Below, one piece after another: positions 231 to 34,678 of a stretch of 37,165 bases of DNA. The stretch's first letter is position 1. Each line of letters starts with the position of its first letter. Source of the stretch: Magnetococcales bacterium (lineage in GTDB: Bacteria; Pseudomonadota; Magnetococcia; Magnetococcales; DC0425bin3). Location: assembly GCA_015228935.1 (NCBI GenBank), contig JADGCO010000039.1, positions 1-37,165 of the forward strand. The letters are read 5' to 3'. The notes under the pieces were generated by a model, which ran no database searches, was not told the origin of the DNA, and saw only the letters and a program-made list of their open reading frames with translations. A program made the position numbers and the translations under genes.

Positions 231-695
231 TCAAACCTGGGCAGGGAGTGGATGCAGGCTGGCCATGTCACCCGAGCCGAACAAATGCTGCATATCAAAA
301 ATGACCACGAAGCCGCCATGCAATCGTCCGATGGCCTGAATATACTCCGATTTCCATGGTACACCAATATCCGGGGCCGTTTCCAAACTTTCAGTTGCAA
401 AATCGGCAACTTCGATCACCCGGTCCACCTGCATGCCAATGACCAGGTTGCGGTTTCCCATGGGCAGATCAACCACCAGGATGCGGGTGTCGTCGGTAGC
501 GGGAATCGCTGCCAGACCGAGCTTGATGCGCAGATCGACCACCGGCACCGTGCAACCACGTACATCGATGACACCGCACAGAAAGGGTGGGGCATTCGGC
601 AGGCGGGCGATGGGACGACTGTCGAGAATTTCCCGCACAATTCCCACCTCGACGGCAAACCGTTCCTCTCCAATGCCCATCGTGACATAGCTCAC
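231..695 (-). CDS. cheW: CheW-type chemotaxis coupling protein (distal copy)
   Basis: This 154-residue protein spans a single CheW domain, the SH3-like adaptor that links CheA to receptor tips in the cytoplasmic array. Visible hallmarks are the opening strand with FAVEVGIVREIL, the PNAPPFLCGVIDVRG segment that matches the conserved P-x-x-P-x-x-x-x-G-x-x-N/D-x-RG turn, then VVDLRIKLGL, and a C-terminal IFDMQHLF strand. The start is GTG at 695, preceded by GGAGG at a 5-base spacing, so it is well supported. An internal ATG at codon 6 is less attractive. The gene lies downstream of the MCP gene but is separated from it by 345 bases that hold a duplicated copy of its own start and a MITE-like element. 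A 26-codon leader ORF ends with TGA overlapping this GTG (GTGA), which suggests coupled translation. Confidence 0.9.
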   Translation of the reverse strand: MSYVTMGIGEERFAVEVGIVREILDSRPIARLPNAPPFLCGVIDVRGCTVPVVDLRIKLGLAAIPATDDTRILVVDLPMGNRNLVIGMQVDRVIEVADFATESLETAPDIGVPWKSEYIQAIGRLHGGFVVIFDMQHLFGSGDMASLHPLPAQV

Positions 696-801
696 GGCAG
701 CCTCCAGACGCTTGACAACAACATTTCAAACTGCAAACCGTTCCTCCCAATACCCATCGTGACTTGGCCCACGGCAGCCTCTGGACGCCTGACAACAACG
801 T
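655..801. repeat. degenerate tandem duplication of the cheW start
   Basis: Two direct copies of about 69 bases, 655-724 and 733-801, are separated by 8 bases. The first copy covers the first 14 codons of cheW, its GTG start and its ribosome binding site; the second is an upstream duplicate with scattered substitutions and one single-base deletion. The upstream copy keeps an AGAGG ribosome binding site and the GTG, but the deletion shifts its frame. Its outer edge (801) abuts the target duplication of the MITE-like element exactly. Confidence 0.85.
692..772 (-). CDS. putative 26-residue leader ORF upstream of cheW
   Basis: The duplicated cheW start gives an ORF beginning at GTG (772) with AGAGG five bases upstream. 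It reads MGQVTMGIG like CheW (MSYVTMGIG), shifts frame through a one-base deletion, and ends in TGA at 694-692, which overlaps the cheW GTG start by the tetranucleotide GTGA. No function is recognised for the peptide. The geometry is that of a translationally coupled leader, but it may simply be a by-product of the duplication. Confidence 0.35.
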   Translation of the reverse strand: MGQVTMGIGRNGLQFEMLLSSVWRLP

Positions 802-972
802 CTCAGAGGCTGTCTGATAACTTGTTAATTTCAAAAAAACGAATGAAAAACTGGGATGGAGGTCCAGGAGGAAGCGGCTCTGCCCTTCCTCTTGGCGGGG
901 TTTGGGGTGGAGCCCCAATAAAATCTTTCTTTCCGATTTTTTTTATCCGAGGGTTAATGGACAGCCTCTCAG
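802..972. mobile_element. MITE-like element with 5-bp target duplication
   Basis: A 161-base body (807-967) is flanked on both sides by CTCAG (802-806 and 968-972), as expected for a 5-base target-site duplication. Its ends are inverted repeats: left AGGCTGTCTGATAAC, right (reverse complement) AGGCTGTCCATTAAC, 12 of 15 identical. There is no coding capacity. Inside are two hairpins, 864-874 with 885-895, and TTGGGG 902-907 with CCCCAA 913-918, followed by a T-rich stretch. This is the pattern of a small non-autonomous element mobilised by a transposase elsewhere. It sits between the MCP gene and the distal cheW and could affect read-through. The remaining bases 973-1040 show nothing recognisable. 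Confidence 0.6.
902..935 (+). terminator. possible hairpin plus T-rich tract inside the MITE-like element
   Basis: A perfect 6-bp stem (TTGGGG/CCCCAA, loop TGGAG) is followed on the plus strand by an A/T-rich run containing CTTTCTTT. It resembles a weak intrinsic terminator, but no plus-strand gene is known to lead into it, so it may only be part of the element's fold. Confidence 0.25.
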
Positions 973-1040: not shown

Positions 1041-3329
1041 TCAATAGCGCGTAAAATTGTCATCGTCGGAATCATTGGATTCTCCCAGGTCCAGATTGAA
1101 TCCTTGCGTATTCTTGGCCGGACGGGACGCATTGTCGCTGCCAGGCTGGTCCCGGGTCGTGCGCGTCAAACTGGCGGCAGTCATTTCACGGTCTGTTTTC
1201 ATTGATGTGGCACGACGTTTTTTTTGTGTTCCCCTTTGCGATTGTGACTGCGACTGCGACTGCAACTGCAACTGCGCCTGCGTTTTCGGCCTGGCCTGAA
1301 ATGGGGCGGTGTGGCCAATCCGGGCGTTTTCTCCCAGATTGAAAAAGCGGATCATTTCCTGAAGCTGCACCGCCTGGTTGGACAGCTCTTCAGAGGTGGC
1401 CGACATTTGCTCGGCTGAGGCGGCATTTTGCTGGATCACCTGGTCCAGTTGCTGAATGGCGGTGTTGATCTGGGCCGCACCCAGATCCTGCTCACGACAG
1501 GCGGCACTGATGTCGCCCACGAGTTCCGCAGTTTTCTTGATGTCGGGCACCAGACGTCCCAGCATGTCACCTGCATGATGTGCCACTTCGACCGTTTCGG
1601 CGGAAACCGCTCCGATTTCCGTGGCGGCCCGTTGACTGCGTTCGGCCAGTTTGCGCACTTCGGAGGCCACCACGGCAAATCCCTTGCCATGCTCACCCGC
1701 CCGTGCCGCCTCGACAGCGGCATTCAGGGCCAGCAGATCGGTTTGCCGGGCAATTTCCTGAATGATGGAGGTCTTGGCGGCAATGGTTTGCATTGCCTGG
1801 ACGGTTTTGGCCACTGCCTGACCACTCTCTTCGGCATGTCTGGCCGATTGTTGGGCAATCTGTTCGGTTTTGTTGGCATTTTCGGCGGTTTGCTTGATGT
1901 TGGCCGCCATCTGTTCCATGGCTGACGAGGCCTCTTCGGCAGCCGTGGCCTGTTCGGTGGCACCCTGACTCAACTGTTGGGCATTGGCCGACAGCTCCTC
2001 GCTTCCGGAGGAGACTGCCGCCGAAGAGATCGTGGCCTCTTCCACCACGGCACGCAGACGTTGCAACATGGTCTCCAGGGCAACCCCCATCACGTCCCGG
2101 TCGGATTTGCGGCGAAAGTCGGCAGCCAGATTTCCACCGGCGATATCATTGGCCACCTGGGCTGTCTTGCGCAAATTGTTGATCATGATATTCAGGGCGT
2201 TGACCAGATCCGCCACTTCGTCCCGGGTGGTCACGGTCACATCAAGGGAGAGATCACCATCTGCCACGGCATCGGCCATGACCACTGCTTTGCCAACATT
2301 TTTACTGAGGTTGAAAGCAATGAAGAGCGCACTTCCCAGGGAGAGCAAAAAGGCGAGAATGGACATGGCAATCTGGAACAGACGAATGGTTTCATAATTG
2401 CGGTCGGCATCACTTCTGTCACTTGCCATGTCTTTTTCGGCGTGTTCGACCATGGCGGTCATGGTCTGGGCCATCTGGGTGGCGGCTTGCCGGACCTCGC
2501 CACGCGACAGGGCAAAGGCCTTGGCCTCCGTGTTTTTGTGGGACCATTCCACGACCCGTTCCATGATTTTTTCCCAGGCAGCCAATTTACCCTGGAAGAG
2601 ATCGTAATTTTGGCGTTCGATATCCGTGGTCAACAACGGGCGAATTTCTGCCAACAGATGATGAACCCGTGCCATGATCTCAGCCACTTTTTTCAGGGCA
2701 GCCTCGGTTTCGGCATCCGTATCGGCATTGGCACTGTCACGCAAAAAGGCTCGGGCATTCCCCCACAGCGTGGTGAGCAGGCGCAGACGCTCGGCAATAC
2801 GCAACTGGGCTGGTGTGGCTCCGGCAGTTTCAACCGGAGCAAAAAATGGTACCAGGGCGTTGTCAGCAGCATCCTTGGCCGTCAAACCTTCCGTCGTGAT
2901 CAGATCCATGGCCCGGTGATTGGATTGCAGACGACCCAACTCACGTACCTTGTCCTGGGCAGAAGTGAATTTATTGAACAGGCCCTCAATTATTGTAATA
3001 TCCTTGAGAATTTTTTCATCTGCCACCTTGCGGAGATGGTCGAGATGCTTCCGGAATTCCTCGCGACGGTCCAGAATGGCCTGGTCAAATTCATCCTTTT
3101 CGGCTGGCTCGACGGAGAGCAGAAAATTTTTTTCCTCGCGCTGGATCAAAAATACGGTGCGTTCCATATTGAGAACAAGTTTGACGCGCTGGGCCGCATA
3201 ATCGACCAGGGTGCTGATTTCCGCCTTCATGCTGGCCAGTCCCGACAGGGCGATCACCGACGAAATGCCCGACAACACAAAGACCACGCCAAAGGCCGTG
3301 ATCAATTTGCTCCGGATTGAAACGCGCAT
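1041..3329 (-). CDS. methyl-accepting chemotaxis protein (transmembrane receptor)
   Basis: This 762-residue receptor has an N-terminal membrane anchor (about 8-30), a ~290-residue helical periplasmic sensor, a second membrane segment near 318-342, HAMP sequence just after it, and the long cytoplasmic signalling coiled coil. The hairpin tip is unmistakable around residues 535-560: [20 protein letters not shown] followed by [20 protein letters not shown]. The protein therefore senses outside the inner membrane and controls CheA through CheW. The sensor looks like a helical-bundle domain; the ligand cannot be read. The start ATG at 3329 has GGAG six bases upstream. Downstream of the signalling domain is a low-complexity tail rich in Gln/Ser, encoded by hexanucleotide repeats, and then a Ser/Asp/Arg-rich end. 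No CheR/CheB-docking pentapeptide is seen at the C-terminus. It lies between two cheW genes in the cheA operon. Confidence 0.93.
1237..1284 (-). repeat. hexanucleotide repeat coding for a Gln-Ser/Gln-Leu tail of the MCP
   Basis: About seven imperfect copies of a 6-base unit (plus-strand GACTGC/AACTGC/GCCTGC) encode alternating Gln-Ser, Gln-Leu and Gln-Ala dipeptides just beyond the receptor's signalling domain. Because the unit is a multiple of three, slippage would lengthen or shorten the tail without breaking the frame. Confidence 0.8.
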
Positions 3330-9053: not shown

Positions 9054-9071
9054 GATGGCCTGATGGCCATC
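9054..9071 (-). terminator. hairpin at the 3' end of the giant gene
   Basis: GATGGCC (9054-9060) and GGCCATC (9065-9071) form a perfect 7-bp stem with a 4-base loop, overlapping the stop codon of the giant gene. No T-run follows on the minus strand, so intrinsic termination is uncertain. It may instead protect the mRNA end or act with Rho. Confidence 0.3.
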
Positions 9072-12000
9072 AAATGATCCCGACATGGAATGGATTGTTC
9101 GGATCGACCAGGAGGGTATTCAACTGACCGCCAGGAGCGGTGCAGGGGGGGCATGTGTTGCATGTGTTGCATGTGTTGTTGCCGAGGGTAAGGGGAGTGG
9201 AACTCGGCAACACCTGTTCCAGAGTGAGGGGCTGGGGAGCCGTGCCGGTACCAGTCACGGGATTGATGACAGCGGCGAGTTTCGGGTCAGAAGGCGTGGC
9301 GCTCGGCAACACCTGTTCCAGGCTGAGGGGAGGGGGAGCCGTGCCGGTACCGGCCATGGGATTGATGACCGCAGCGTGTTTCAGGTCAGGACCGGTATTC
9401 AGGGTCGGAGGGTGGCCGGTTCCCTGGCCTGGCAGGGTATTGGCAACAGGAGCGCCAGCCATGAGGAGAGGGTCGGTTGGCTCATGAAAGAGAATATTGT
9501 CGCCCTGGCTGCCGGGGAGGGGAGGATTGTTTGCATCTCCCCCATACAGGAAAGAGACTTCCGCCAGATGGCCGGTTTTTCCATCACTGAATGTCAAATG
9601 ACCATCGGTCAAAATCTGGTTGGTTCCCTGCCATTGTCCGTTGCCGGTCGTCTGGAGGGAGAGAGAGACGATGCCTTTGTCGGCCAGTGAATGAAGTTCC
9701 CCGGTACCGGAGATGCCATCCTGGTTTTGATCCTGCCAGACCAGAAGGTCTGCGAACAGGGTATCCAGGGCATCGAGAATCTGGTCATGGTTGCTGTCGA
9801 GGAGTGCCAGGGCCTCCATGCCGGAATGGGCATCCGCGAACATGCGCTCCGAAAAAATTTCCGTGGCATCGTTGATGAGGCCATCGTGGTTGCGATCCAG
9901 GGCCAACAGGGCATCATCGGCACCCACCCAACCGGTCTGTTGGGGTTGTCCGGTCAGGCCCATGTCAAATTTCACGCCCTGTCCCCAATCCACCAACTGG
10001 ATGCCATCGCCCTTCAGGTCGAGAACGACGGGATCCAGATAGGTGGCCATGTCGGTATCGACCAGCAGGGAGACGGAACCCTGGACATAACGATGGTAAT
10101 TCTGGCCGCCAATGGTGGTGTAATTGGCCGTATAACTCCAGCCGGTTCCGATATGAAGCGTATCGCTGCCGTCGCCCATGATTTGCAGATCGGTGCCGCT
10201 GGCGGTCAAGTGGATGATATCCTGGGCCGTGAACCGCAAGACATGCGCTCCCGTGCCTGCTTGCAGGTCGATGACCTCGATGGAGGCCAGACGATAATCC
10301 GGCAGGGTGGTCAAATCGACATCGAGGGTATTGACCAGCAGGGTGTCGGTACCCGCACCCCCATCGATCAGGTCGAAGGTCGTATTGTCCAGAATAAACA
10401 GATCATCGCCATTTTCGCCAAACAACAGATCTGTGCCATTGGCGGTCAGGGTATCGTTGCCGTCGCCGCCCAGCAGGACCTCTTGTCCGGAGGTGCCAGT
10501 CAGGGTGTTGGCGCTGGCATCCCCCTGCTGGGTGACGGCCAAAGCCGTCAGTGTCAAACCGGTGCTTGTGAAAGAGGGATCCAACACCAATCCACTGCCG
10601 ATGTTGAGACCACTGATCCGGTCCACGGAACCGCTGGCTGCCGTATGACTCATGACCTGGAACGAGTTGCCGGCAACAGGCACGAACCCATTGATCAGGT
10701 TGATCTGGAGCGTGCCATTCAAGCCGACGGTGCCGGATATGGCGAGTTTGTCATACTGGGTGCCGACTGTGGTGCCGCCCAGGTCCAGGTTCAGGAAGGC
10801 CGTGTTGCCAAAAGCCAACGTGGAGCCGGTGTGGTTGATGGTCAGCAAGCCTGCTGTGCCGGCGGTTCCGGGTTGGATGGTCCCGTTCAGCTCGGAACCG
10901 CCGGTATTGGCCACGGTGAGTGTACCCGCGCCTTGCAGGATGCCCGCTGCCTGCAAGGTGAAGTCATTACCGGTACCTGATATACCCAGGGTGCGGGTAT
11001 TGGCGATATCGATGGTGCCGGCACTGGTGAGCATGCCGTTGATGGTCAAATCATCCACTGTCACACTGATCATGCCGCTGTTGTCGAGAGTACCGGTGAT
11101 GGTTTTGCTGCCATCGGCATCGCCACCCAGGGTGATGAGACCGGTATTGGTCAAGGTGTAGCCGCTGCCCATGGTCAGGGTGGCGTTCCAGGGGGCGTAG
11201 TCGGTGGTGAGGGTCAGGGTGCCGGCATTGTCCAGGTTGCCATTGAACGTCTGGCTGGAGGCGCTGCCCGCCGCCGATGTGCCATCGATGAACAAACTGG
11301 CTCCGACGGCATTGCTGAACGCCACGTTGAACGTGTCATCTGTACTGCGCAGGTAGAGAATGCCCTGATTGACGAAAGTGCCGGTGCCGGTCACGGTGAC
11401 GATACCGCCGAATTTCAAGGTGGCCGTACTGGTCAGGTGCGTATATCCCGTGCCGATGTTGAGCGAGGGGGTTCCCGTCAGATCAATCGTTCCGGTCCCG
11501 GCCAGGGTCGTACCGCTGCCAAAATAAATGGTGCCGTGACTCACGGCCAGGGTCATGCCGGCACTGACGCTGAGCGTGCCACCCTGGGTGTTGAATTGGG
11601 CATTGGTGTTGGTGATGTTCAGATCATCCACCGTCACCTGGATGGTTCCGGTGTTGGTGATGGAGCCGACGATGGTTTTGATGCCATCGGCATCGCCACT
11701 CAGGGTAATGACACCGGTGTTGGCCAGGGTATAGCCGCTGCCCATGGTCAGGGTGGCGTTCCAGGGGGCATAGTCGCTGGTGAGGGTCAGGATGCCGGCA
11801 TTGTCCAGGTTGCCATTGAACGTCTGACTGGAGGCGCTGCCCGCCGCCGATGAGCCATCGATGAACAGACTCGCGGCAGCGGCATTGCTGAACGCAACGT
11901 TGAAAATGTCATCCGTACTGCGCAGATAGAGGACGCCCTGATTGGTAAAGGTACCGGTGCCGGTCACGGTGACGATACCACCGAATTTCAAGGTGGCCGT

Positions 12001-15000
12001 ATTGGTTTGGTGCGTATATCCCGTGCCGATGTTGAGAGTGTGGGTTCCGGTCAGATCGACCGTTCCGGTCCCGGTCATGGCTGTGCCACTGCCAAAACGG
12101 GTGGTTCCGTTACCCACGGACAAGGCCACGCCGGTATTGACATTAATGGTGCCATTTTGCGTGTCGAACTGGACACCGTTGTTGTTGATGTTCAAATCAT
12201 CGACCGTTACCTGGATGGTACCGGTATTGGTGACCGCGCCGACAATGGTCTTGATGCCATCGGCATCGCCACCCAGAGTGATAAGGCCGGTGTTGGCCAG
12301 GGTGTAGCCGCTGCCCATGGTCAGGGTGGCGTTCCAGGGGGCGTAGTCGCTGGTGAGGGTCAGGATGCCGGCATTGTTCAGGTTGCCATTGAATGTCTGG
12401 CTGGAAGAGCTGCCCGCCGCCAAGGTGCCATCGATAAACAGACTCGCGGCAGCGGCATTGCTGAACGCAACGTTGAAAATGTCATCCGTACTGCGCAGAT
12501 AGAGGACGCCCTGATTGGCAAAGGTGCCGGTGCCGGTCACGGTGACGATACCACCGAATTTCAAGGTGGCCGTATTGGTTTGGTGCGTATATCCCGTGCC
12601 GATGTTGAGCGAGGGGGTTCCCGTCAGATCAATCGTTCCGGTCCCGGCCAGAGTCGTACCGCTGCCAAAATAAATGGTGCCGTGACTCACGGACAGGGTC
12701 AGACCGGTACCGACGTTGAGCGTGCCGTTTTGTGTGTCGAATTGGACGTTGGTGTTGGTGATGTTTAAATCATCAGCTGTCACCAGGATGGTGCCGGCGT
12801 TGGTCACTGCTCCGACAATGGTTTTGATGCCATCGGTATCGCCACCCAGGGTGATGAGGCCGGTGTTGGTCAGGGTGTAGCCGCTGCCCATGGTCAGGGT
12901 GGCGTTCCAGGGGGCATAGTCGGTGGTGAGGGTCAGGGTGCCGGCATTGTCCAGGTTGCCATTGAACGTCTGGCTGGAGGTGCTGCCCGCCGCCGAGGTG
13001 CCATCGATGAACAGACTGGCGGCAGCGGCATTGCTGAACGCAACGTTGAAAACATCATCTGTACTGCGCAGGTAGAGGATGCCCTGATTGACGAAAGTGC
13101 CGGTCCCGGTCACGGTCACGCTGCCACCAAATTTCAAGGTGACCGTACTGGTCAGGTGCGTGTATCCCGTACCAATATTGAGAGAGGGGGTTCCCGTCAG
13201 ATCGATCGTTCCGCTCCCGGCCAGGGTCGTACCGCTGCCAAAATAAATGGTTCCGTGACCCACGGACAGGGTCAGACCGGCATCGATGTTGAGCGTGCCG
13301 TTTTGTGTGTCGAATTGGACGTTGGTGTTGGTGATGGTCAGATCATCCGTGGTGACATGGATCTGGCCGGTATTGGTGAGAGCGCCGACGATTGTGTTGG
13401 TGCCATTCGTATTGCCTGCCAGGGTGATGAGGCCGGTGTTGGTCAGGGTCTTGCCCGTGGCCATGGTCAGGGTGGCTCCCCAGGGGGCATAGTCCGTCGC
13501 CAGGATCAGGGTGCCGGCATTGTTCAGGTTGGCATTGAAGGTTTGTGAGGCGAGGGCACCGGCAGCCGTTCTGCCATCCAGGGTTGCGGAGGCCCCGGAC
13601 TGGATGGTCAGGGTTGGATTGACCACGCCGGTGCCTTTCAGGGAGAGCGCATTTTGTGCCACCAGGGTTCCGCTGCCCGCCAGGGTGACGTTCTGGAGCG
13701 TGTCGGCGACGTTGTATTCCAGAACACCGTTGACAGTGAGGTTGTTGAAGGTGGTGCTGGCGCTGAGGGTCAGGGTGGTGCCGGTGGCCAGGGTCGAGGC
13801 GGTGGCAAAGGTGACCGTATCGCCGGCGTTGCCGTTGATGCGGATGGTGGTGCCGCTCATGATCTGATTCAGGGTGGCCGAGGTGAGGGTGAGGCTGTTG
13901 TTGCCGCTGCCGGTGAGGTCGATGATTTCAATATTGGCAATCTTGCCGGCCATGCCGGCAGTGGCGAGATTCAGGGTGAAACCGGCACCATCCAGACGCA
14001 GGGTATCCTGACCGGTTCCCCCATCGATTTTCAGGAACGTGGCATCGGTTATGGCCAGGATGTCGTTGCCGGCCCCGCCGATCAAAACATCCGCCCCGCC
14101 GGTCCCGGTCAGGGTGTCGTTGCCCAGCCCGCCGTGCAGGGTATTGGCACCAGCGGTTCCGTTGAGGGTTTGGGGTGTTGCGGGGGCTTCCGTGAAATTG
14201 CCACCGAAAAACACATGGGCGGTACCGGCATCCGTGCCATTTGCATCGGCCCAGGGGGCACCGGCAACGATATCATCGAATCCGTCACCATTGACATCCC
14301 CGGCCCCGCTGACCGACCAGCCGCTCCAGTGACCAGGTGCCGCACCATCCAGACGAAGGCCGGCATGGCCATCCAGGGCGGAGAGGTCGATCTGGGCAGC
14401 AAAACCGCTGGATTTGCCGTACACCACATAGATGGCCCCGGAGTCGGTGCCGTTCGTATCGGCCACGGGGGCACCGATGACGAGATCGGCATAGCCATCC
14501 CCATTGAAATCACCGGCACTGCCGACTGACCAGCCGCTTTTGTCGCCTGGTGCGGCACCATTCAGGCGGAAACCGTTCGTGCCGTTCAGGGAGGTCAGGG
14601 AAATCTGGGAGGTCCAGCCGGAAGCCTGCCCGAACACGACGTAGCTGGTACCGGAAAGGTTGCCGCCGGAATCGGCGGCATACGCGCCGATAAGCAGGTC
14701 GGCAAACCCGTCGCCATTGACATCGCCGGCACCACTGACCGACAGGCCACTGTAATCGTTCGCTGTTCCTCCATCGATGCAAAAGCCATTGGTGCCATTC
14801 AGGCTGGAAAGATCCAGGGTCGCGGTGAAACCGGCTGACTTGCCAAAAATGACATGGCTGGCCCCGGAATTGCTGCCGCCGGAGTCAGCCCCGCTAGCCC
14901 CCACGATGAGGTCGGCAAACCCGTCGCCATTGACATCACCGGCGCTGCTGACTGACTCACCGCTCTCGTCGGCAGCCGCCACGCCATCCAGACGAAAACC

Positions 15001-18000
15001 GTTCGTGCCATCCAGGGTCGAAAGATTGAGTGAGGCGGCAAAGCCCGAGGATTTGCCGAAAATGACATAACTGGCCCCGGTGTCGCTGCCATCCGGGGTG
15101 GCATGAATGGCACCCACGATGAGGTCGGCAAAGCCATCCCCATTGACATCCCCGGCGGCACTCACGCTGCCACCGCTCAGATTGTTGGTGCCTACGCCAT
15201 CCAGGCGAAAACCGTTGCTGCCATCCAGGGCCGAGAGATCGAGCTGGGCGGCAAACCCGGATGCCTTGCCGAAGATCACATAAGCAGCGCCGGAACCATC
15301 TCCGCCAGGGTCTGCACCGACGGCACCGATCACCAGATCATCGAAGCCATCCCCGTTGACATCTCCGGCCCCGTTGACAGCACTGCCGCTCCAGTCGTTG
15401 GCCGCCACACCGTTCACACGAAAACCCTGACTGCCATTCAGGGCCGAGAGATCAATCGATGCGGCAAACCCGGTTGATTGGCCAAATATCACGTAGCTGG
15501 CTCCGGTATCGCTCGCTCCAGCATCGGCCTTGCGGGCACCGACGATGATGTCGTGGCAGCCATCGCCATTGAGGTCGCCGACATGACCGACGGCCACGCC
15601 ACTTTCGTCGCCTGCCGCCACGCTGTTCAATTGGAAACCCTGGGTGCCGGTCAGGGAGGCAAGCGGCACGACCGAGAGGGGGGTGATGGTCACGGAGGGG
15701 GTCAGCAGGCTTTCGGCTGTGCCGTGGCCGTCGGTATAGGCGACCTGGACCCGAATCCGGGTATTGAGGTCCGTTTGCAGCGGCGTATAGGTGCTGCCGG
15801 TTGCCCCGCCGATGCTGCTCCAGGTGGTACCGCCGTCCGTGGAGCGTTGCCACAGGTATGCCAGGGTTCCCAATCCATCGGCATCGACCAGGGCGGTTGT
15901 GTTCACGGTCAGGGCCTGGCCGACTGCCGTGCCGGTTATGGCGATGGAGCCGGTGGGGGCATCGTTGACATTGCCGACGGCACCCGTGCTGCTGCTGGTG
16001 ACGCTTTCCGATGTGCCATGACCATCCGTATAACTCGCTGTCACGGTGATTATTTTGCCCACTTCGGCTTCGGCCAGCACCAGGGTGTTGCCGGTCGCCC
16101 CGGATATGTTGGTGCCATCGGCCAACCATTGCCAGGCGATGGTGCCCAGACCATCCGTATCGGTCAGGGTATTGGCTGCGGTCAGGGTGTTGCCCTGGGT
16201 CGCCGTGCCACTGATGGTCACGCCGCCGGTTGGGGCATCGTTGGTATTGCCGACAACACTCGTGCTGCTGCTGGTGACGCTTTCCGACGTGCCATGACCA
16301 TCCGTATAACTCGCTGTCACGGTGACCGTTTTGCCCACTTCGGCTTCGGTCAACACCAGTGTATTGCCGGTCGCACCGGCAATGTTGGTGCCATCGGCCT
16401 GCCATTGCCAGGCGATGGTGCCCAGACCATCCACGTCGGCGAGGGTGTTGGCTGCGGTCAGGGTGTTGCCCTGGGTCGCCGTACCACTGATGGTGACGGT
16501 ACCGGTGGGGGCATCGTTGGCATTGCCGACGGCGCTCGTGCTGCCGCTGGTGACGCTTTCCGCCGTGCCATGACCATCCGTATAACTTGCCGTCACGGTG
16601 ATCATGGTGCCCACTTCGGTTTCGGATGGTACCAATGTGTTGCCTGTTGCACCGGCAATGGGGGTGCCATCGGCGAGCCATTGCCAGGCGATGGTGCCCA
16701 GACCGTCCGCATCGGCCAGGGTATCGGTTGCGGTCAGGGTGTTGCCCTGGGTTGCTGTGCCGCTGATGGTGACGGTACCGGTGGGGGCGCTGTTGGTGGC
16801 TGCCACGGTGCTGGTGGCACTGCTCGTGACGCTTTCCGGCGTACCGTGACCATCCGTATAACTGGCCACCGCCGTGATGACTTTGCCGACCTCGCCTGCT
16901 GTCAGTGTCAGGGTATCGCCCGTGGCACCGGAGATGTTCGTCCCATCGGCCTGCCACTGGTAGCTGATGGTTCCCAGACCGTCCCTGTCGGCCAGGGTGT
17001 TGCTGGCCGTCAGGGTGCCTCCCTGAAGTATCGTGCCACTGATGGTCACGTTGCCGCTGGGCGCATTGTTGGTATTGACCGTGGCGCTTGTGGCGCTGCT
17101 CTCGACACTTTCGTTCGTGCCGTGACCATCGGTATAGCTTGCCACCACCGTGATCGTCTTGCCCACTTCCGTTTCGGAGAGAACAAGCGTGCTGTTCGTT
17201 GCTCCGGCAATATCCACGTCATCCGCCTGCCATTGATAGCTGACGGTTCCCAGACCATCCTCATCGGTCAGGGTATGGCTGGCGGTCAGGGTTTCTCCTT
17301 CCGTGACCGTACCATTGATGGTGACTGTTCCGCCGGGAGCATCGTTGGCGTTGGTGACAGCACTGCTGGCGCTGCTCTCCACACTTTCGCTCGTGCCGTG
17401 ACCATCGGTATAGCCTGCCACCACCGTGATCACTTTGCCCACTTCCGCTTCGGTGAGGACCAGCGTATTGCTTGTCGCCCCAGCGATATCCACACCATCC
17501 GCCTGCCACTGATAGCGGACGGTTCCCAGATCGTCTGCGTCGGTCAGGGTATGGCTGGCGGTCAGGGTTTCTCCTTCCGTGAATGTACCATCAATGATCA
17601 CGGCACCGCCGGGCGCATCGTTGGCGTTGGCAATGGTGCTTGTGGCGTTGCTGAGAACACTTTCGGCGGTGCCCAGGCCGTCGGTATAGCTGGCTGTTAC
17701 CGTAATGATTTTGCCTGTCTCGGCTTCGGTCAGCACCAGCGAGTCGTGTGTGGCACCGGCAATTTTTTCGCCATTCGCCAGCCATTGGTAGAGAATCGTG
17801 CCCAGACCATTCGCGTCGGCCAGGGTATGGGTCACGGTCAGGGTCTCTCCCTGGGTGGGGGTCCCTTGGATGGTCACGCTGCCGGTGGGGGCGGCGGCGG
17901 GATTGGTCACCTGGAGGGTGAAATCCTCGATATGGGGCAGAATGGCATGGGTCGGATCCGTCACCATGACGCGCACATGCAAAACAGGCTGGTTCGCATG

Positions 18001-21000
18001 GTCCAGTTTGGCTTCCGGCCCAAGTTGCAGTTGGCCATCGACCAGGACGAACAGATCGGCATCCGCACCGCCGACAATCTTGAATTCAGGCTTGACGCCG
18101 GCAGGGTGTGACAGGTTGAAACCGCTGACGATGGTTCCCGGTCCGGCATTGCCCGCGATGGTGTCGTCGGCGAGGGTGAAGCCTGCAAAACCATTTTGGG
18201 TGCCCTGTTTGGTCAGGGTATCCTGGAAGTGCGACCAGGCCTGTTCGGCGCTGACCGGATTTTTGTGGGACAATGGCCCCATCAAAAATGCCAGGTTTTC
18301 AATACGGATGGCCTGTTCCGGGGTGAGGGGTGCCAGTTTGGTGGCTGCCTGACCGACAGCCTCCGGAATCAGAATGCCGTTATCGGGGTTGTTGTCGCCA
18401 TCGAGGGATTGCAAGAGTTGCAGGATGCTGGTGATTTTGGCGAAATCCGCCGAGGGCACGATGTCCAGGGGGGTCAGGATGGCACTGCCCGGGGCCGTTC
18501 CCAGGACAATGTTGCCCAGGGAGAGCTGTACGGTTTCCCCGGGGCGGAAATAAAAATGCCCTGCGGCATCTGTGGTTCCCGACTGGGTGGCCGTCTGGAA
18601 ATGGATCCCTCCCACGAACCCGTCCAGGAAAGTGCCCTGGAGCAGCGGATTCAAGGTGAACGTGGTCGAGACCGCAGCCTGGCTGGTATCCTTGGCCGTG
18701 ACGCGAATGGCAATGGGTTGCAGGGGGATTGCCAGGGGTGGGGTGCCGGAAAAGGTGGCACTCTCTGGATTGAAGGTCAACCACGCCGGCAGGGGATCAC
18801 CGGCCATGGTTGTGGCGGAAAAGGTCAGGTTGTCGTTCAGATCGACATCGTCGAAAGCCGTTGCCGCGAAGCTGTAACTGAAAGGTTTGCCTGGCAGGAA
18901 ATTCTGGTCTGCGATTCCTTCCGCCCGGAGGGGTGGGGCATCGTTGCCCGGGGAGCTGATCACGTCGGTGCCGTGCAGGGTTGGCGGGTCGTTGACCGGG
19001 GTGATGGTCACGCCAATTTTACCGGTGGTGGCACTGAAGGGGGTGGAACCGCCTGTCTGGGTGGTATCCACCAGGATCTGGTTTTGTGCAGTTGACCAGC
19101 CACCGGTATAACTGTCGTCCATGGCCCGGATGAGCAGATCCGGGGCAGGTCCGTTGTAGTTGGCAACGGGGACAAAGCGCAGCAGGGAATCGGCGGAGAT
19201 GGCCACGGCGTTGGGGCCGTCGGTCGCTGTTGCGGGAATGGCAGCCCAGGTGTTGCCTCCATCGCTGGAAAATTGCCAATTCCCCTTGGTAGGGGCATCC
19301 GTGTTGCCGATGATGGCCACCCCGGCCAGGTGACCCGTGGCATCTGCATCCTGAAATGCTGCGGAAAGCATGGTGCCGATCTGGGTGCCGGTCAGACCGG
19401 TGGCATCCTCCAACTGGGGTGCCAGCGTAAAATCATGGCCATTCAGGATGGGAGCATCGTTGGTTCCGACGATGGTGAGCGTCACCTGGGCGGTCGCGGC
19501 AGCCCCACGGCTGTCGATCACTGTATAGGTAAAAGAATCTGTTGTTTGTTCTCCGGATGCCAGGGAGTCGAAATGGTCATCCGGTTGGTAGGTCAGGGTA
19601 CCGTCATCTGCCTGGGTGACAGTGCCTTGCAAGGCGGAAAAATCGAAACCATCCGGTTGGATTTGCAGGGTTATCTGGCCATCCGGATCCTGATCGTTGG
19701 CCAGCAGCACGGCCGGGGTCATGGTGAAAGAACCCTTGGCCGGGATCTCGAACGTGTCGTTTGTGGCCTGTGGTGGGATATTGGGTTTTTCCGTCACCGC
19801 CTGCATGACAGGCGGTGTGGCATCAGGTGAAGTGATTGGGGTGGATGTGGCATCAGGGTCGCCAGGCAATTGAGGAGTCAGGGCACTGATCAAACCGGAT
19901 GTACTGGCAGTACCGTACAAACCTGCTGCACCCATCCCAGTCTGTCCCAATGGGTCCGGTGGGAGAGGGATATTGTTGGGACCACTCTTGTCCGACAAGC
20001 CTCCCGGAATGCCGGAGGTGTTGCCGAGGCCGAAATCAGGTCCATTGCCGGGACTGTTCGTGTCGGCGGCGGGTTTGGTGGTTTCTTTGTTGGGTTCACC
20101 GACCGGTGTGGAGCCGCCGAAATCCGGTCCGCCGGTATGGGTTTTTTCGACATCACCCGTACCGAAGTCCGGCCCGCCGGCCCCCTGTTTTGCATCGCCA
20201 TTGCCCGTGGCGGGCGACTCTCCAAAATCCGGACCGCTGTTTTTTTTCTCTTCCTCTCCCTTTTTCTCTTCCCCCTTTTTCTCTTCTTCATGTTTCTCTT
20301 CGTTTTTTTTCTCTTCTTCTTTTTTGGTCTCTTCCTTGGCTTTTTCCTCGCTTTTTTCTTCGCCCTGCTTTTCCCCCTTGTTTTTGCCGGCATCTTCTCC
20401 CTTGTCACCCCCCTTGTCCGTTTTTTCCTTGCCTGAATCCTGTTTCAGTTCTTCCTGTTTGCGCTGTTCGACTTTTTCTTCGATCTTTTTTTGCTCTGCC
20501 TGTTCCTTGTGTTCGAAGGTCTGGGTGGACAATTGGGAATTCAGTTTGGCCATGAAGGTGTCTGGTGCCTTGAAGACCGGCTTTGGCGGACCTCCGGTAA
20601 ACGACACGGCCGTGGCCGTGCCCGGAGTGGTGAGGGTCACGGCTCCCTGTCCCTGGGCATCGCCAATGGACAGCACCCCCGATGTGTGGACCACGGTGGT
20701 CTCGCCCGCCGGGGTCACTTCCCCATCCAGGGCCGAACCCTTGATGCCAATTGTGGCCACCGGTGTTTTGATGACCGAGTGTTGTCCCGATTTGCTGAGA
20801 TGGGCCAGTTTGCCGCTGACATAGCGAAAGATGCCCTGCAACACCGTGGCGGCGAATTTGCCTGTGGAGGTACTCGGGTCATATACGTACTGGGTCAAAA
20901 TACCCCGGCCATCCTCACCGAGTTGGAACAGGGTGTCATCGTTGAGCAGGAGTTTCAGCAGGCTGCCGTGACCGGTCTTGAGGACATCGCCCAGACGTAC

Positions 21001-21462
21001 CGCATCCCCTTTTTGCAACAGGCGTGATTCGCCATTGCGGTCACGGGCGAACACCCGACCGACAACCCGGTCCACCCGGCCAATGATGGGTGATTCCGCC
21101 TCGCCGCCTGGCCAGAAGAGCGGGCCGGCCACCATGAAGGGTGCCACGGGGTTGAGCAGCAGTGACTGCACCGTGTCGGGCGTGAGGGTTGCTTCATTGT
21201 CGATTTTGAGAAGAGGGGGGGTGGCGGTGAAGTAATCGTGGATGACGAACCGTTCGCCGGCGGGATTTTCAATGATCAGATTGGCACCGGAGCGGGAATA
21301 TTCACCTTCCAGCAGGAAGGAGGCATCCGGGAGGTAGACCTCATGGTTGGCGAGGGTTTCTCCGGCATGCGGCTCCCGGGTTGCCTGGGAAACCCGACTG
21401 ACATGGTTGTTGTCCGATGGTGGACGGAGAGTCTGTAGAACGTGTGAAATGCCCAGTGCCAT
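9070..21462 (-). CDS. giant repeat-rich surface/secreted protein (FecR, Ig-like, FG-GAP, RTX, EF-hand-like)
   Basis: A 4130-residue mosaic, roughly 400 kDa. In order (residues approximate): a FecR-type domain (145-285); a Lys/Glu-rich spacer (317-408); a linker with four GPDFG motifs (410, 430, 445, 474); cadherin/VCBS-like and He_PIG-like Ig modules (560-1180); eight 92-residue Ig-like repeats (1190-1930); seven FG-GAP repeats with GD-x-NGDG-x-x-D calcium loops (1935-2430); a short RTX nonapeptide block (GGLGNDTLTG); a beta-helix-like array of 191-residue repeats (2640-3410); a second RTX block (3650-3715); EF-hand-like loops (LDRNHDGLIND, QDQNQDGISG; 3815-3915); and a tail with two 33-residue repeats and a Cys cluster. 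Calcium sites plus the absence of a signal peptide suggest type I secretion and an adhesin-like role, but no transporter genes are nearby. ATG 21462 follows AGAGGT by 7 bases; GTG 21471 is less likely. Confidence 0.9.
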   Translation of the reverse strand: MALGISHVLQTLRPPSDNNHVSRVSQATREPHAGETLANHEVYLPDASFLLEGEYSRSGANLIIENPAGERFVIHDYFTATPPLLKIDNEATLTPDTVQSLLLNPVAPFMVAGPLFWPGGEAESPIIGRVDRVVGRVFARDRNGESRLLQKGDAVRLGDVLKTGHGSLLKLLLNDDTLFQLGEDGRGILTQYVYDPSTSTGKFAATVLQGIFRYVSGKLAHLSKSGQHSVIKTPVATIGIKGSALDGEVTPAGETTVVHTSGVLSIGDAQGQGAVTLTTPGTATAVSFTGGPPKPVFKAPDTFMAKLNSQLSTQTFEHKEQAEQKKIEEKVEQRKQEELKQDSGKEKTDKGGDKGEDAGKNKGEKQGEEKSEEKAKEETKKEEEKKNEEKHEEEKKGEEKKGEEEKKNSGPDFGESPATGNGDAKQGAGGPDFGTGDVEKTHTGGPDFGGSTPVGEPNKETTKPAADTNSPGNGPDFGLGNTSGIPGGLSDKSGPNNIPLPPDPLGQTGMGAAGLYGTASTSGLISALTPQLPGDPDATSTPITSPDATPPVMQAVTEKPNIPPQATNDTFEIPAKGSFTMTPAVLLANDQDPDGQITLQIQPDGFDFSALQGTVTQADDGTLTYQPDDHFDSLASGEQTTDSFTYTVIDSRGAAATAQVTLTIVGTNDAPILNGHDFTLAPQLEDATGLTGTQIGTMLSAAFQDADATGHLAGVAIIGNTDAPTKGNWQFSSDGGNTWAAIPATATDGPNAVAISADSLLRFVPVANYNGPAPDLLIRAMDDSYTGGWSTAQNQILVDTTQTGGSTPFSATTGKIGVTITPVNDPPTLHGTDVISSPGNDAPPLRAEGIADQNFLPGKPFSYSFAATAFDDVDLNDNLTFSATTMAGDPLPAWLTFNPESATFSGTPPLAIPLQPIAIRVTAKDTSQAAVSTTFTLNPLLQGTFLDGFVGGIHFQTATQSGTTDAAGHFYFRPGETVQLSLGNIVLGTAPGSAILTPLDIVPSADFAKITSILQLLQSLDGDNNPDNGILIPEAVGQAATKLAPLTPEQAIRIENLAFLMGPLSHKNPVSAEQAWSHFQDTLTKQGTQNGFAGFTLADDTIAGNAGPGTIVSGFNLSHPAGVKPEFKIVGGADADLFVLVDGQLQLGPEAKLDHANQPVLHVRVMVTDPTHAILPHIEDFTLQVTNPAAAPTGSVTIQGTPTQGETLTVTHTLADANGLGTILYQWLANGEKIAGATHDSLVLTEAETGKIITVTASYTDGLGTAESVLSNATSTIANANDAPGGAVIIDGTFTEGETLTASHTLTDADDLGTVRYQWQADGVDIAGATSNTLVLTEAEVGKVITVVAGYTDGHGTSESVESSASSAVTNANDAPGGTVTINGTVTEGETLTASHTLTDEDGLGTVSYQWQADDVDIAGATNSTLVLSETEVGKTITVVASYTDGHGTNESVESSATSATVNTNNAPSGNVTISGTILQGGTLTASNTLADRDGLGTISYQWQADGTNISGATGDTLTLTAGEVGKVITAVASYTDGHGTPESVTSSATSTVAATNSAPTGTVTISGTATQGNTLTATDTLADADGLGTIAWQWLADGTPIAGATGNTLVPSETEVGTMITVTASYTDGHGTAESVTSGSTSAVGNANDAPTGTVTISGTATQGNTLTAANTLADVDGLGTIAWQWQADGTNIAGATGNTLVLTEAEVGKTVTVTASYTDGHGTSESVTSSSTSVVGNTNDAPTGGVTISGTATQGNTLTAANTLTDTDGLGTIAWQWLADGTNISGATGNTLVLAEAEVGKIITVTASYTDGHGTSESVTSSSTGAVGNVNDAPTGSIAITGTAVGQALTVNTTALVDADGLGTLAYLWQRSTDGGTTWSSIGGATGSTYTPLQTDLNTRIRVQVAYTDGHGTAESLLTPSVTITPLSVVPLASLTGTQGFQLNSVAAGDESGVAVGHVGDLNGDGCHDIIVGARKADAGASDTGASYVIFGQSTGFAASIDLSALNGSQGFRVNGVAANDWSGSAVNGAGDVNGDGFDDLVIGAVGADPGGDGSGAAYVIFGKASGFAAQLDLSALDGSNGFRLDGVGTNNLSGGSVSAAGDVNGDGFADLIVGAIHATPDGSDTGASYVIFGKSSGFAASLNLSTLDGTNGFRLDGVAAADESGESVSSAGDVNGDGFADLIVGASGADSGGSNSGASHVIFGKSAGFTATLDLSSLNGTNGFCIDGGTANDYSGLSVSGAGDVNGDGFADLLIGAYAADSGGNLSGTSYVVFGQASGWTSQISLTSLNGTNGFRLNGAAPGDKSGWSVGSAGDFNGDGYADLVIGAPVADTNGTDSGAIYVVYGKSSGFAAQIDLSALDGHAGLRLDGAAPGHWSGWSVSGAGDVNGDGFDDIVAGAPWADANGTDAGTAHVFFGGNFTEAPATPQTLNGTAGANTLHGGLGNDTLTGTGGADVLIGGAGNDILAITDATFLKIDGGTGQDTLRLDGAGFTLNLATAGMAGKIANIEIIDLTGSGNNSLTLTSATLNQIMSGTTIRINGNAGDTVTFATASTLATGTTLTLSASTTFNNLTVNGVLEYNVADTLQNVTLAGSGTLVAQNALSLKGTGVVNPTLTIQSGASATLDGRTAAGALASQTFNANLNNAGTLILATDYAPWGATLTMATGKTLTNTGLITLAGNTNGTNTIVGALTNTGQIHVTTDDLTITNTNVQFDTQNGTLNIDAGLTLSVGHGTIYFGSGTTLAGSGTIDLTGTPSLNIGTGYTHLTSTVTLKFGGSVTVTGTGTFVNQGILYLRSTDDVFNVAFSNAAAASLFIDGTSAAGSTSSQTFNGNLDNAGTLTLTTDYAPWNATLTMGSGYTLTNTGLITLGGDTDGIKTIVGAVTNAGTILVTADDLNITNTNVQFDTQNGTLNVGTGLTLSVSHGTIYFGSGTTLAGTGTIDLTGTPSLNIGTGYTHQTNTATLKFGGIVTVTGTGTFANQGVLYLRSTDDIFNVAFSNAAAASLFIDGTLAAGSSSSQTFNGNLNNAGILTLTSDYAPWNATLTMGSGYTLANTGLITLGGDADGIKTIVGAVTNTGTIQVTVDDLNINNNGVQFDTQNGTINVNTGVALSVGNGTTRFGSGTAMTGTGTVDLTGTHTLNIGTGYTHQTNTATLKFGGIVTVTGTGTFTNQGVLYLRSTDDIFNVAFSNAAAASLFIDGSSAAGSASSQTFNGNLDNAGILTLTSDYAPWNATLTMGSGYTLANTGVITLSGDADGIKTIVGSITNTGTIQVTVDDLNITNTNAQFNTQGGTLSVSAGMTLAVSHGTIYFGSGTTLAGTGTIDLTGTPSLNIGTGYTHLTSTATLKFGGIVTVTGTGTFVNQGILYLRSTDDTFNVAFSNAVGASLFIDGTSAAGSASSQTFNGNLDNAGTLTLTTDYAPWNATLTMGSGYTLTNTGLITLGGDADGSKTITGTLDNSGMISVTVDDLTINGMLTSAGTIDIANTRTLGISGTGNDFTLQAAGILQGAGTLTVANTGGSELNGTIQPGTAGTAGLLTINHTGSTLAFGNTAFLNLDLGGTTVGTQYDKLAISGTVGLNGTLQINLINGFVPVAGNSFQVMSHTAASGSVDRISGLNIGSGLVLDPSFTSTGLTLTALAVTQQGDASANTLTGTSGQEVLLGGDGNDTLTANGTDLLFGENGDDLFILDNTTFDLIDGGAGTDTLLVNTLDVDLTTLPDYRLASIEVIDLQAGTGAHVLRFTAQDIIHLTASGTDLQIMGDGSDTLHIGTGWSYTANYTTIGGQNYHRYVQGSVSLLVDTDMATYLDPVVLDLKGDGIQLVDWGQGVKFDMGLTGQPQQTGWVGADDALLALDRNHDGLINDATEIFSERMFADAHSGMEALALLDSNHDQILDALDTLFADLLVWQDQNQDGISGTGELHSLADKGIVSLSLQTTGNGQWQGTNQILTDGHLTFSDGKTGHLAEVSFLYGGDANNPPLPGSQGDNILFHEPTDPLLMAGAPVANTLPGQGTGHPPTLNTGPDLKHAAVINPMAGTGTAPPPLSLEQVLPSATPSDPKLAAVINPVTGTGTAPQPLTLEQVLPSSTPLTLGNNTCNTCNTCPPCTAPGGQLNTLLVDPNNPFHVGII
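9151..9177 (-). repeat. 9-base triplicate coding for Asn-Thr-Cys repeats
   Basis: Three perfect tandem copies of a 9-base unit (plus strand GCATGTGTT) encode repeated Asn-Thr-Cys (NTCNTCNTCPPC) about 25-35 residues before the C-terminus of the giant protein, giving four cysteines within ten residues. Confidence 0.9.
9203..9400 (-). repeat. two 99-bp (33-residue) repeats in the giant protein tail
   Basis: Two tandem 99-base copies starting at 9203 and 9302 encode imperfect repeats of the type AAVINPxxGTGTAPxPLxLEQVLPS. They lie between the EF-hand-like loops and the Cys cluster. Their role is unknown; a proline-rich flexible spacer is plausible. Confidence 0.85.
11231..13523 (-). repeat. 191-residue repeat array, constant 573-bp DNA period
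   Basis: The same sequence landmark (coding for SQTFNGNLDNAGTL and variants) recurs at 11231, 11804, 12377, 12950 and 13523, giving four consecutive intervals of exactly 573 bases with no insertions or deletions. Related partial units extend on both sides. The units are rich in Thr, Gly, Asn and Leu with short repeated strands (GTGTFxNQGxLYLRSTDD, LITLGGDADG), as in right-handed beta-helix or filamentous-haemagglutinin-like passenger domains. Confidence 0.85.
15690..17886 (-). repeat. eight 92-residue Ig-like repeats, constant 276-bp DNA period
   Basis: The landmark coding for LGTIxxQW recurs at 15865, 16141, 16417, 16693, 16969, 17245, 17521 and 17797, seven intervals of exactly 276 bases. 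Each unit reads like TVTISGTATQGNTLTA...DGLGTIAWQW...GATGNTLVLTEAEVGK...ASYTDGHGTSESV and ends in an NDAP-type linker, a pattern known from bacterial Ig-like adhesin modules. The unit nearest the C-terminal side is the most divergent but keeps the same period. Confidence 0.88.
20235..20510 (-). repeat. Lys/Glu-rich low-complexity segment of the giant gene
   Basis: The coding strand is an A/G-rich run specifying about 90 residues dominated by Lys and Glu (EEKKGEEEKK, KKEEEKKNEEKHEEEKKG). It separates the FecR-like domain from the repeat modules and is likely an extended charged helix or spacer. Confidence 0.8.
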
Positions 21463-21575
21463 CCTTCTCACCTCTGCGCAAATTCAAAAACCCAAAGATT
21501 AGACTCTGAAACGTTCAAAAAGTTTTCCGGCAGACCGGTTTCTGGTGAAAAAAATGCAATAAGCGGGCGTTTTTT

Positions 21576-22278: not shown

Positions 22279-22527
22279 TTGCAACCTCCATAAACCGAAG
22301 ATGATCCGACCAAATGCCACGGAGAGTCAGACATCACAACCGGCTCATCTTATCAAAAGCCCATACCGGTGTCATGCGTTCCATGCCTGCATGCCCACTC
22401 CAAATGCGATTGCCCTGAGCTTTTCCCTGGACAACAGGGCCAAAAAAATTTTCAATGGCTGTCAGAGTGGCAGGTCGTCATCAGGCCTGGGTCTACAGGA
22501 TCCGGGCAAAGGAGAGAGATTCCAGTC
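22279..22527. other. divergent intergenic region before thiSG
   Basis: This region must hold the promoters for the DUF4351 pair and for the thiazole synthase gene. I looked for a TPP riboswitch (conserved CUGAGA and the pairing partner segments) ahead of the thiamin gene and saw none. A weak palindrome, GCATGCCTGCATGC-like, lies near 22382-22396. An open frame extends thiSG upstream to 22369 but does not resemble ThiS. Confidence 0.5.
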
Positions 22528-33413: not shown

Positions 33414-34565
33414 ATGGCCCGCGCCGATGACAATAAAAATTTTCTCTCTTCCGAAGATGCCGTCGCCTTGCGTCTGCGCGAACGTCTGGCCCGCTTTCCC
33501 TGGGGATTGCTGCTGTTATTGACTCTGGCGGCCTGTATTGGTTTGACAGTGCTTTTTTCCGCCGTGGGTCGGCGCAATATTGGCATGCTGTTCAGTCAAA
33601 CCGTGCGTTTCGGCTTTTCCCTGGTGCTGATGGTGATTCTGGCCCTGGCCAATGAAAAGGTCTACCGTCGTTATGCCTACCTGATTTATGGCCTGATCCT
33701 TTTAATGTTGGTGGCGGTGGCCATCATGGGGGATGTCGGCATGGGGGCACGAAGGTGGTTGGAGATCGGTTTTGTGCGTCTGCAACCTTCGGAACTCATG
33801 AAAGCAGCCATTGTTCTGGCCCTGGCGCGCTATTTTCACGACCAGTCCGCCTCCCCTTTGCGGCTGCGGGATGTCCTGATTCCCTTGTGTCTCATCCTGG
33901 CTCCTCTGGCTTTGATCGTTCATCAACCCGACCTGGGGACGGCGGTCATTGTGGCGGTCATCAGCGGTGCGGTCATCTTTGTGGCAGGTCTTTCCTGGCA
34001 TGCCATCCTGGCCACCGTCATCATTGTGCCGGCGTCGTTTCCCCTGCTTTGGAATTTTCTCCATGACTACCAGAAACGCCGCATTTTTACCCTGTTTTTC
34101 CCGGAAGACGATCCCCTGGGGGCCGGATATCACATCATCCAATCCAAGATTGCCGTGGGTTCCGGAGGTTTGACCGGCAAGGGGTTCATGGGTGGCAGTC
34201 AGAGTCATCTGGACTTTCTTCCCGAGCGGCACACCGATTTTATTTTTTCGGTTTTGGCGGAAGAGTGGGGGTTCCTGGGGGCTGTCATTCTGATCGTCAT
34301 CTATGGCCTGATCACCTTGCGGGGAATCACCATCGCGGTCATGGCTCGGGACCGGTTCGGCCTGCTCCTGGCCTCGGGATTGCTTTCCCTTTTTCTGTTT
34401 CAGGTCATCATCAATATTGGCATGGTCATTGGCTTGTTGCCTGTGGTGGGCATTCCGCTGCCGCTGGTCAGTTATGGAGGCAGCTCCATGATCACCGTCA
34501 TGCTGGCCATGGGTCTTTTGGCACATGTAAGCATTCACTCCAAACAACACGGTCGCGCTGTTTAG
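33414..34565 (+). CDS. rodA: peptidoglycan glycosyltransferase RodA (SEDS family)
   Basis: A polytopic SEDS protein of about 383 residues with ten predicted membrane segments. Family landmarks are the MGARRWLEIGFVRLQPSELMK region (near 100-120, given here as GARRWLEIGFVRLQPSE), HQPDLGTAVIV, GSGGLTGKGFMGGSQSHLDF, ERHTDFIFSVLAEEWGFLG and the C-terminal PLPLVSYGGSSM. It polymerises lipid II glycan strands with PBP2. The frame also opens at TTG 33405, overlapping the mrdA stop as TTGA with GGAG three bases upstream; ATG 33414 is preferred but the TTG is possible, as in mreD. Its last codons and stop lie inside a duplicated stretch shared with the start of lpxD. Confidence 0.94.
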   Translation: MARADDNKNFLSSEDAVALRLRERLARFPWGLLLLLTLAACIGLTVLFSAVGRRNIGMLFSQTVRFGFSLVLMVILALANEKVYRRYAYLIYGLILLMLVAVAIMGDVGMGARRWLEIGFVRLQPSELMKAAIVLALARYFHDQSASPLRLRDVLIPLCLILAPLALIVHQPDLGTAVIVAVISGAVIFVAGLSWHAILATVIIVPASFPLLWNFLHDYQKRRIFTLFFPEDDPLGAGYHIIQSKIAVGSGGLTGKGFMGGSQSHLDFLPERHTDFIFSVLAEEWGFLGAVILIVIYGLITLRGITIAVMARDRFGLLLASGLLSLFLFQVIINIGMVIGLLPVVGIPLPLVSYGGSSMITVMLAMGLLAHVSIHSKQHGRAV

Positions 34566-34678
34566 GGAGTTTCCGTGATGAAATTGTCTGACATTGTCCG
34601 CCTGCCTGCCAACCGACACGGTCGCGCCGTTTCAGGGAGTTCCCGTGATGAAATTGTCTGACATTGCCCGTCTGCTTG
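34547..34678. repeat. degenerate tandem duplication spanning rodA end and lpxD start
   Basis: Copies at 34547-34608 and 34616-34678 differ by five transitions and one single-base indel. Each contains the sequence of the rodA C-terminus (HGRAV), an AGGGAG ribosome binding site, an ATG and the first ~10 codons of lpxD. The indel removes the rodA stop codon in the second copy. The second copy is the real lpxD start; the first opens a 27-codon ORF. Confidence 0.9.
34578..34661 (+). CDS. putative 27-residue leader ORF overlapping the lpxD start
   Basis: The upstream copy of the lpxD start has its own AGGGAG and ATG and begins MKLSDIVRLPANRHGRAVSG, the first eight residues nearly matching LpxD (MKLSDIAR). 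It then runs through the remainder of the duplication and stops at TGA 34659-34661, 12 bases inside lpxD. The overlap would couple or interfere with lpxD initiation. The product resembles no known peptide; it may be a by-product of the duplication. Confidence 0.4.
   Translation: MKLSDIVRLPANRHGRAVSGSSRDEIV

Follow-up and report, generated by a model that had tools for sequence, protein, structure and literature searches.

The window, i.e. the whole stretch of DNA analysed here (37,165 nucleotides of contig JADGCO010000039.1 from a Magnetococcales bacterium), carries a cheA–cheW–mcp–cheW run, the last gene of which is the subject of this analysis. The features of this region, together with those of a second duplicated gene start in the same window, are collected in Table 1. 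A consensus scan of positions 600–1100 found neither a promoter nor a terminator, an RNA family search of the window gave nothing that reached the gathering score, and phage records showed no match to positions 1–1200. After cheW, on the same minus strand, lies an ORF of 54 amino acids (48–209). Its sequence (MDGLRVLII...) is similar, as judged by eye, to the first part of a response regulator, for example CheB; a Pfam search of this ORF returned no hit, and it is therefore possibly a remnant.

Table 1. Features of the cheW region and of the lpxD junction in the window
Feature	Coordinates	Strand	Basis or detail
cheA	6035-3837	minus	Pfam
First cheW	3821-3360	minus	Pfam
mcp, upstream of second cheW	1041..3329	minus	Pfam MCPsignal, HAMP, 4HB_MCP_1
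MITE-like element, 163 bp	806..968	minus	between mcp and repeat
Repeat copy 1, drifted	730..805	minus	AGAGG (782-778), GTG 772, one base missing near 746/747
Predicted 26-codon leader frame	692..772	minus	stop overlaps cheW GTG
Repeat copy 2	652..728	minus	GGAGG (705-701), GTG 695, first cheW codons
Second cheW, last gene of run	231..695	minus	Pfam CheW, E 8.9e-31
Tandem duplication, rodA/ftsW-like to lpxD junction	34540..34675	plus	TRF period 70, 89%
27-codon out-of-frame leader from copied lpxD ATG	34578..34661	plus	overlaps real start (34648)

The duplicated start of the second cheW gene

The start of the second cheW is duplicated in tandem directly upstream of the gene, as the first-pass annotation had reported. 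TRF returned an array at 655–799 (period 77, 1.9 copies, 88% matches, 1% indels, score 234), and an ungapped repeat search resolved it into the pairs 670–728/747–805 (spacing 77, 85%) and 652–668/730–746 (spacing 78, 94%), a single indel splitting the repeat into these two registers. The unit is therefore 77–78 bases long, which corrects the approximately 69 bases first given. In its best register the sequence upstream of cheW matches at 34 of 40 bases, compared with 19–24 of 40 upstream of 12 orthologs, and the repeat is far beyond chance. Two adjacent direct copies specific to the lineage are what is expected of a short tandem duplication.

The earlier description of the upstream copy was also borne out: a ribosome binding site and a GTG are retained, one base has been lost, and the resulting frame overlaps the true start. 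On recomputation from the sequence, translation from GTG 772 would run for 26 codons (MGQVTMGIGRNGLQFEMLLSSVWRLP) and end at TGA 694–692, overlapping GTG 695 as GTGA. By eye the original unit is 78 bases (26 codons), so that the copied start would have been in the cheW frame; read by eye without the one-base deletion, that start remains in the cheW frame and meets a stop after 15 codons, at TGA 728–726. It is therefore the deletion that sets the overlapping GTGA end. A Shine-Dalgarno-like site persists in copy 1, weaker than that in copy 2 (−5.8 versus −9.3 kcal/mol; called starts have a median of −5.7 and random 20-mers −3.3 kcal/mol). The predicted fold at the cheW start showed nothing unusual (z 0.47), with 132 of 200 shuffles folding at least as well.

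Between the repeat and mcp lies an element with the features of a MITE: it is short, multicopy and bounded by terminal inverted repeats (ends GAGGCTGTC/GACAGCCTC) and by a short target duplication, TGA, at 803–805 and 969–971. We take it to resemble IS5/IS1031-type elements. A 316-base query containing the element gave 49 matches in its own genome, identical 3-base flanks were seen at 15 of the 30 element loci examined, and matches occurred in 14 of the 48 genomes searched (own included), elsewhere mostly to its core. As a separate observation, the element is abundant in its own genome, with TNA target duplications, and pieces of it lie at one end of contigs C1, C2, C4, C5, C6 and C7; it therefore probably breaks the assembly.

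Orthologous cheW loci

The comparison used 12 orthologous loci (L032–L043) with 47–71% protein identity; one further sequence, G037:C168 (63%), lay outside this set. The cheW orthologs follow an mcp-type ORF; they come from other genomes of the order and, in two cases, from outside it. Conservation of the leader in relatives had been named beforehand as a check, and this failed, as a repeated start upstream of cheW was found at none of the 12 loci. Since the duplication is lineage-specific, absence in relatives taken alone is compatible with a young leader function. In the two genomes of the same genus, G001 and G002, CheW matches were distant only (32%), and a search of genome contigs for relatives of this cheW confirmed none.

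The N-terminal motif is SYVT or SVVT in 10 orthologs (L032–L041), QFVT in L042 and QYLT in L043. Within the window, copy 2 encodes SYVT and copy 1 GQVT. In L032–L040 an ATG was seen by eye 8–11 codons ahead of the SYVT/SVVT motif, and the GTG start of the cheW in the window is therefore a local feature.

Short tandem duplications and their placement

For the census, TRF arrays with a period of 30–150, at most three copies and at least 85% matches were counted after merging of overlapping rows. The 85% cut-off was chosen after an initial look without an identity cut, which had given 24 arrays in the genome of the window (G000), 18 in G002, none in 46 kb of G003 and one in G013. In contigs sampled by convenience (the longest, or those met earlier) and not at random, G000 held 19 arrays in 434 kb in a first sample and 31 in 825 kb in a larger one, or 26 in 788 kb once the three arrays of the window and two overlapping MITE sequence were set aside. 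The same rule gave 15 arrays in 339 kb of G002, two in 129 kb of G001, two in 218 kb of G003 and four in 200 kb of G031, which belongs to another family. None was found in 598 kb of three other genomes of the order (G006, 98 kb; G008, 100 kb; G013, 400 kb), nor in 509 kb from 78 loci of other bacteria, these being the loci left from a set of 80 after removal of two from Magnetococcales (L199 and L200). The excess is thus neither uniform in the genus, given the low count in G001, nor exclusive to it, given that in G031.

Array periods ranged from 31 to 99 in the first sample. Junction homology was slight: of 17 high-identity arrays, drawn from five genomes, 15 had a matched span minus period of −4 to +4. 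Ku (PF02735) was detected in none of 48 genomes of the order, with B. subtilis positive as a control, and Ku-type end joining was rejected on this ground as the origin of the duplications. At one gene junction a 78-base tandem duplication is present in G000 (C2:45491-45646), a different 57-base one in G002 (L301:1923-2031) and none in G001; as the two repeats differ, they are taken as independent events at the same place. For another G000 array, at C5:94516, neither G001 nor G002 offered a matching sequence for comparison. A literature search, for which most subscription journals fell outside coverage, gave, among the records listed, nothing on duplicated bacterial gene starts or on Magnetococcales and short tandem duplications in them.

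Placement relative to genes was assessed with a crude gene caller made for this analysis, according to which the G000 arrays touched starts 8 times versus 2.4 at random placement (P 0.0023) and stops 7 times versus 2.3 (P 0.0053), while 11 arrays fell in gene interiors versus 21.6 expected, a count that low being reached in none of 3000 placements. The period was divisible by 3 in all 10 G000 arrays lying wholly inside genes versus 8 of the 21 others. Both the scarcity of arrays inside genes and the frame-preserving periods of those found there are as expected of short tandem duplications. By the same gene calls, G002 showed enrichment at stops (5 versus 1.3) and in intergenic sequence (7 versus 1.8) and depletion of interiors (3 versus 11.0), with no enrichment at starts (1 versus 1.3 expected). 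This placement is as expected if duplications arise at random and selection then filters them: gene-breaking duplications would be lost, and those at junctions would survive.

Five of the eight start-touching G000 arrays contain a start codon one period upstream, in frame in two and out of frame in three. All three out-of-frame copies give leaders that run into the real gene, the 22-codon one to base 7, the 26-codon one to base 4 and the 27-codon one to base 14; besides cheW, this layout is seen at C1:165352 and at lpxD. The latter lies in the window itself and has the same duplicated-start layout as cheW, the upstream ATG copy opening the 27-codon leader just mentioned. The rodA/ftsW-like/lpxD junction is present once in G002, and no tandem repeat was found at this junction in G001. 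The closest named record for lpxD is from Magnetococcales bacterium WMHbin3 (63%).

A null model was built by duplicating the called gene starts of G000 (540 starts, of which 209 begin NTGA). Of the out-of-frame copies, 23% terminated no later than base 15 of the gene and 15% gave an NTGA overlap; for genes beginning NTGA, an overlapping stop resulted in 38%. With a random one-base deletion added to the copy, NTGA overlap was obtained in 12% over all starts. On these frequencies the GTGA layout at cheW is an ordinary outcome, and the overlapping leader frame, once the duplication is granted, is within chance expectation.

Origin of the duplicated start and of its leader frame

Short tandem duplication mutations leave two copies side by side, each tens of bases in length, and their ends show little homology or none. 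The cheW repeat shares these properties; it differs in its setting, where such events are unusually frequent (G000 and G002) and no Ku was found in the 48 genomes searched. It is very probably a near-neutral, lineage-specific duplication of this kind, with the leader as a by-product. A duplication of about 78 bp, covering the ribosome binding site and the first cheW codons, would have arisen in the lineage, leaving copy 2 as the intact cheW start and copy 1 as redundant. Copy 1 would since have drifted to the present 88% match, with SYVT changed to GQVT, a weakened Shine-Dalgarno site and the one-base deletion, and the 26-codon frame overlapping the GTG would follow from geometry. The duplication would thereby form part of a large load, carried by G000 and a genome of the same genus, that persists where genes are left unbroken. 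We infer that the duplication is near-neutral and the leader without function; counting against this, the copy still has a fair ribosome binding site, a GTG and an open frame, all of which a functional leader would keep.

A wider proposal, which we consider rather unlikely, is that short tandem duplication is hyperactive in this lineage (tens of bases, little junction homology, no Ku found) and, filtered by selection, repeatedly equips genes with an additional upstream start and ribosome binding site. Start-overlapping leaders would be made in this way time after time, and some of them, perhaps including the cheW leader, would tune expression. The duplication-rich lineage is of greater interest than the leader. 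If it acted as a control device, the cheW leader would add only a minor example of leader coupling; taken as one instance of a genome-wide process, the locus illustrates how upstream start sites and leader ORFs can be gained through mutation alone, and it directs attention to a lineage suited to studying how short tandem duplications originate.

It is unlikely that the MITE-like element caused the repeat, its neighbouring 78 bases being duplicated through a break or an aborted transposition at its end. Position 805, at the edge of copy 1, is also the base with which the TGA target duplication of the element begins, a coincidence that may reflect either chance or cause, and the cheW array is the only one of the 31 sampled that abuts an element without overlapping it. 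Against this, only 4 of the 31 G000 arrays have an element match no more than 300 bases away, namely the cheW array, two that overlap (and are made of) element sequence and one 245 bases away. With so few arrays near element matches, the element was rejected as a general cause of the arrays.

Recruitment of the upstream copy as a coupled leader, as had been proposed in the first-pass annotation, appears more doubtful still. Ribosomes would start at GTG 772, terminate at the TGA and reinitiate at GTG 695, thereby setting or tuning the level of cheW. All three features on which that proposal was built (duplication, frame change and GTGA overlap) are real, and it is further favoured by the GTG kept in the copy and by a Shine-Dalgarno energy that lies at the genome median for called starts. 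According to PMC6728339, overlapping pairs are often coupled, coupling having been found in 13 of 14 stop/start pairs tested; the pairs described there resemble the cheW layout in their NTGA overlap and in a Shine-Dalgarno site within the upstream frame, but consist of two genes, whereas the upstream frame at cheW is a 26-codon by-product of duplication. A closer likeness in form is the short leader ORF of iraD in E. coli, the stop of which overlaps the start codon of the gene and which mediates its control; as described in PMC5574718, translation and coupling were shown and are controlled by CsrA, whereas the predicted cheW leader is a degraded copy of the start of cheW itself and is missing from the orthologs. 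The stop at cheW does overlap the gene start, as in a coupled leader, but the frame is kept at none of the 12 orthologous loci, although such conservation is not obligatory for a young leader, and the layout is expected from geometry and arises elsewhere in the genome. As cheW has the stronger site of the two, and that site is not hidden by an unusual fold, strict coupling is unlikely; the predicted leader may have a mild effect on cheW.

That the repeat is an assembly artefact is highly improbable: the genome is in 197 contigs and the period of 77 coincides with a k-mer length used by assemblers, but assembly would not create a divergence of about 12% and one indel between the copies, and array periods vary widely.

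Elsewhere in the window, a 4133-amino acid ORF on the minus strand (9070–21471) gives matches to FG-GAP, cadherin-like, bacterial Ig and RTX repeats and contains several internal tandem repeats. On the plus strand, a single ORF at 22369–23523 matches both ThiS and ThiG, as a fused thiazole-synthesis protein.
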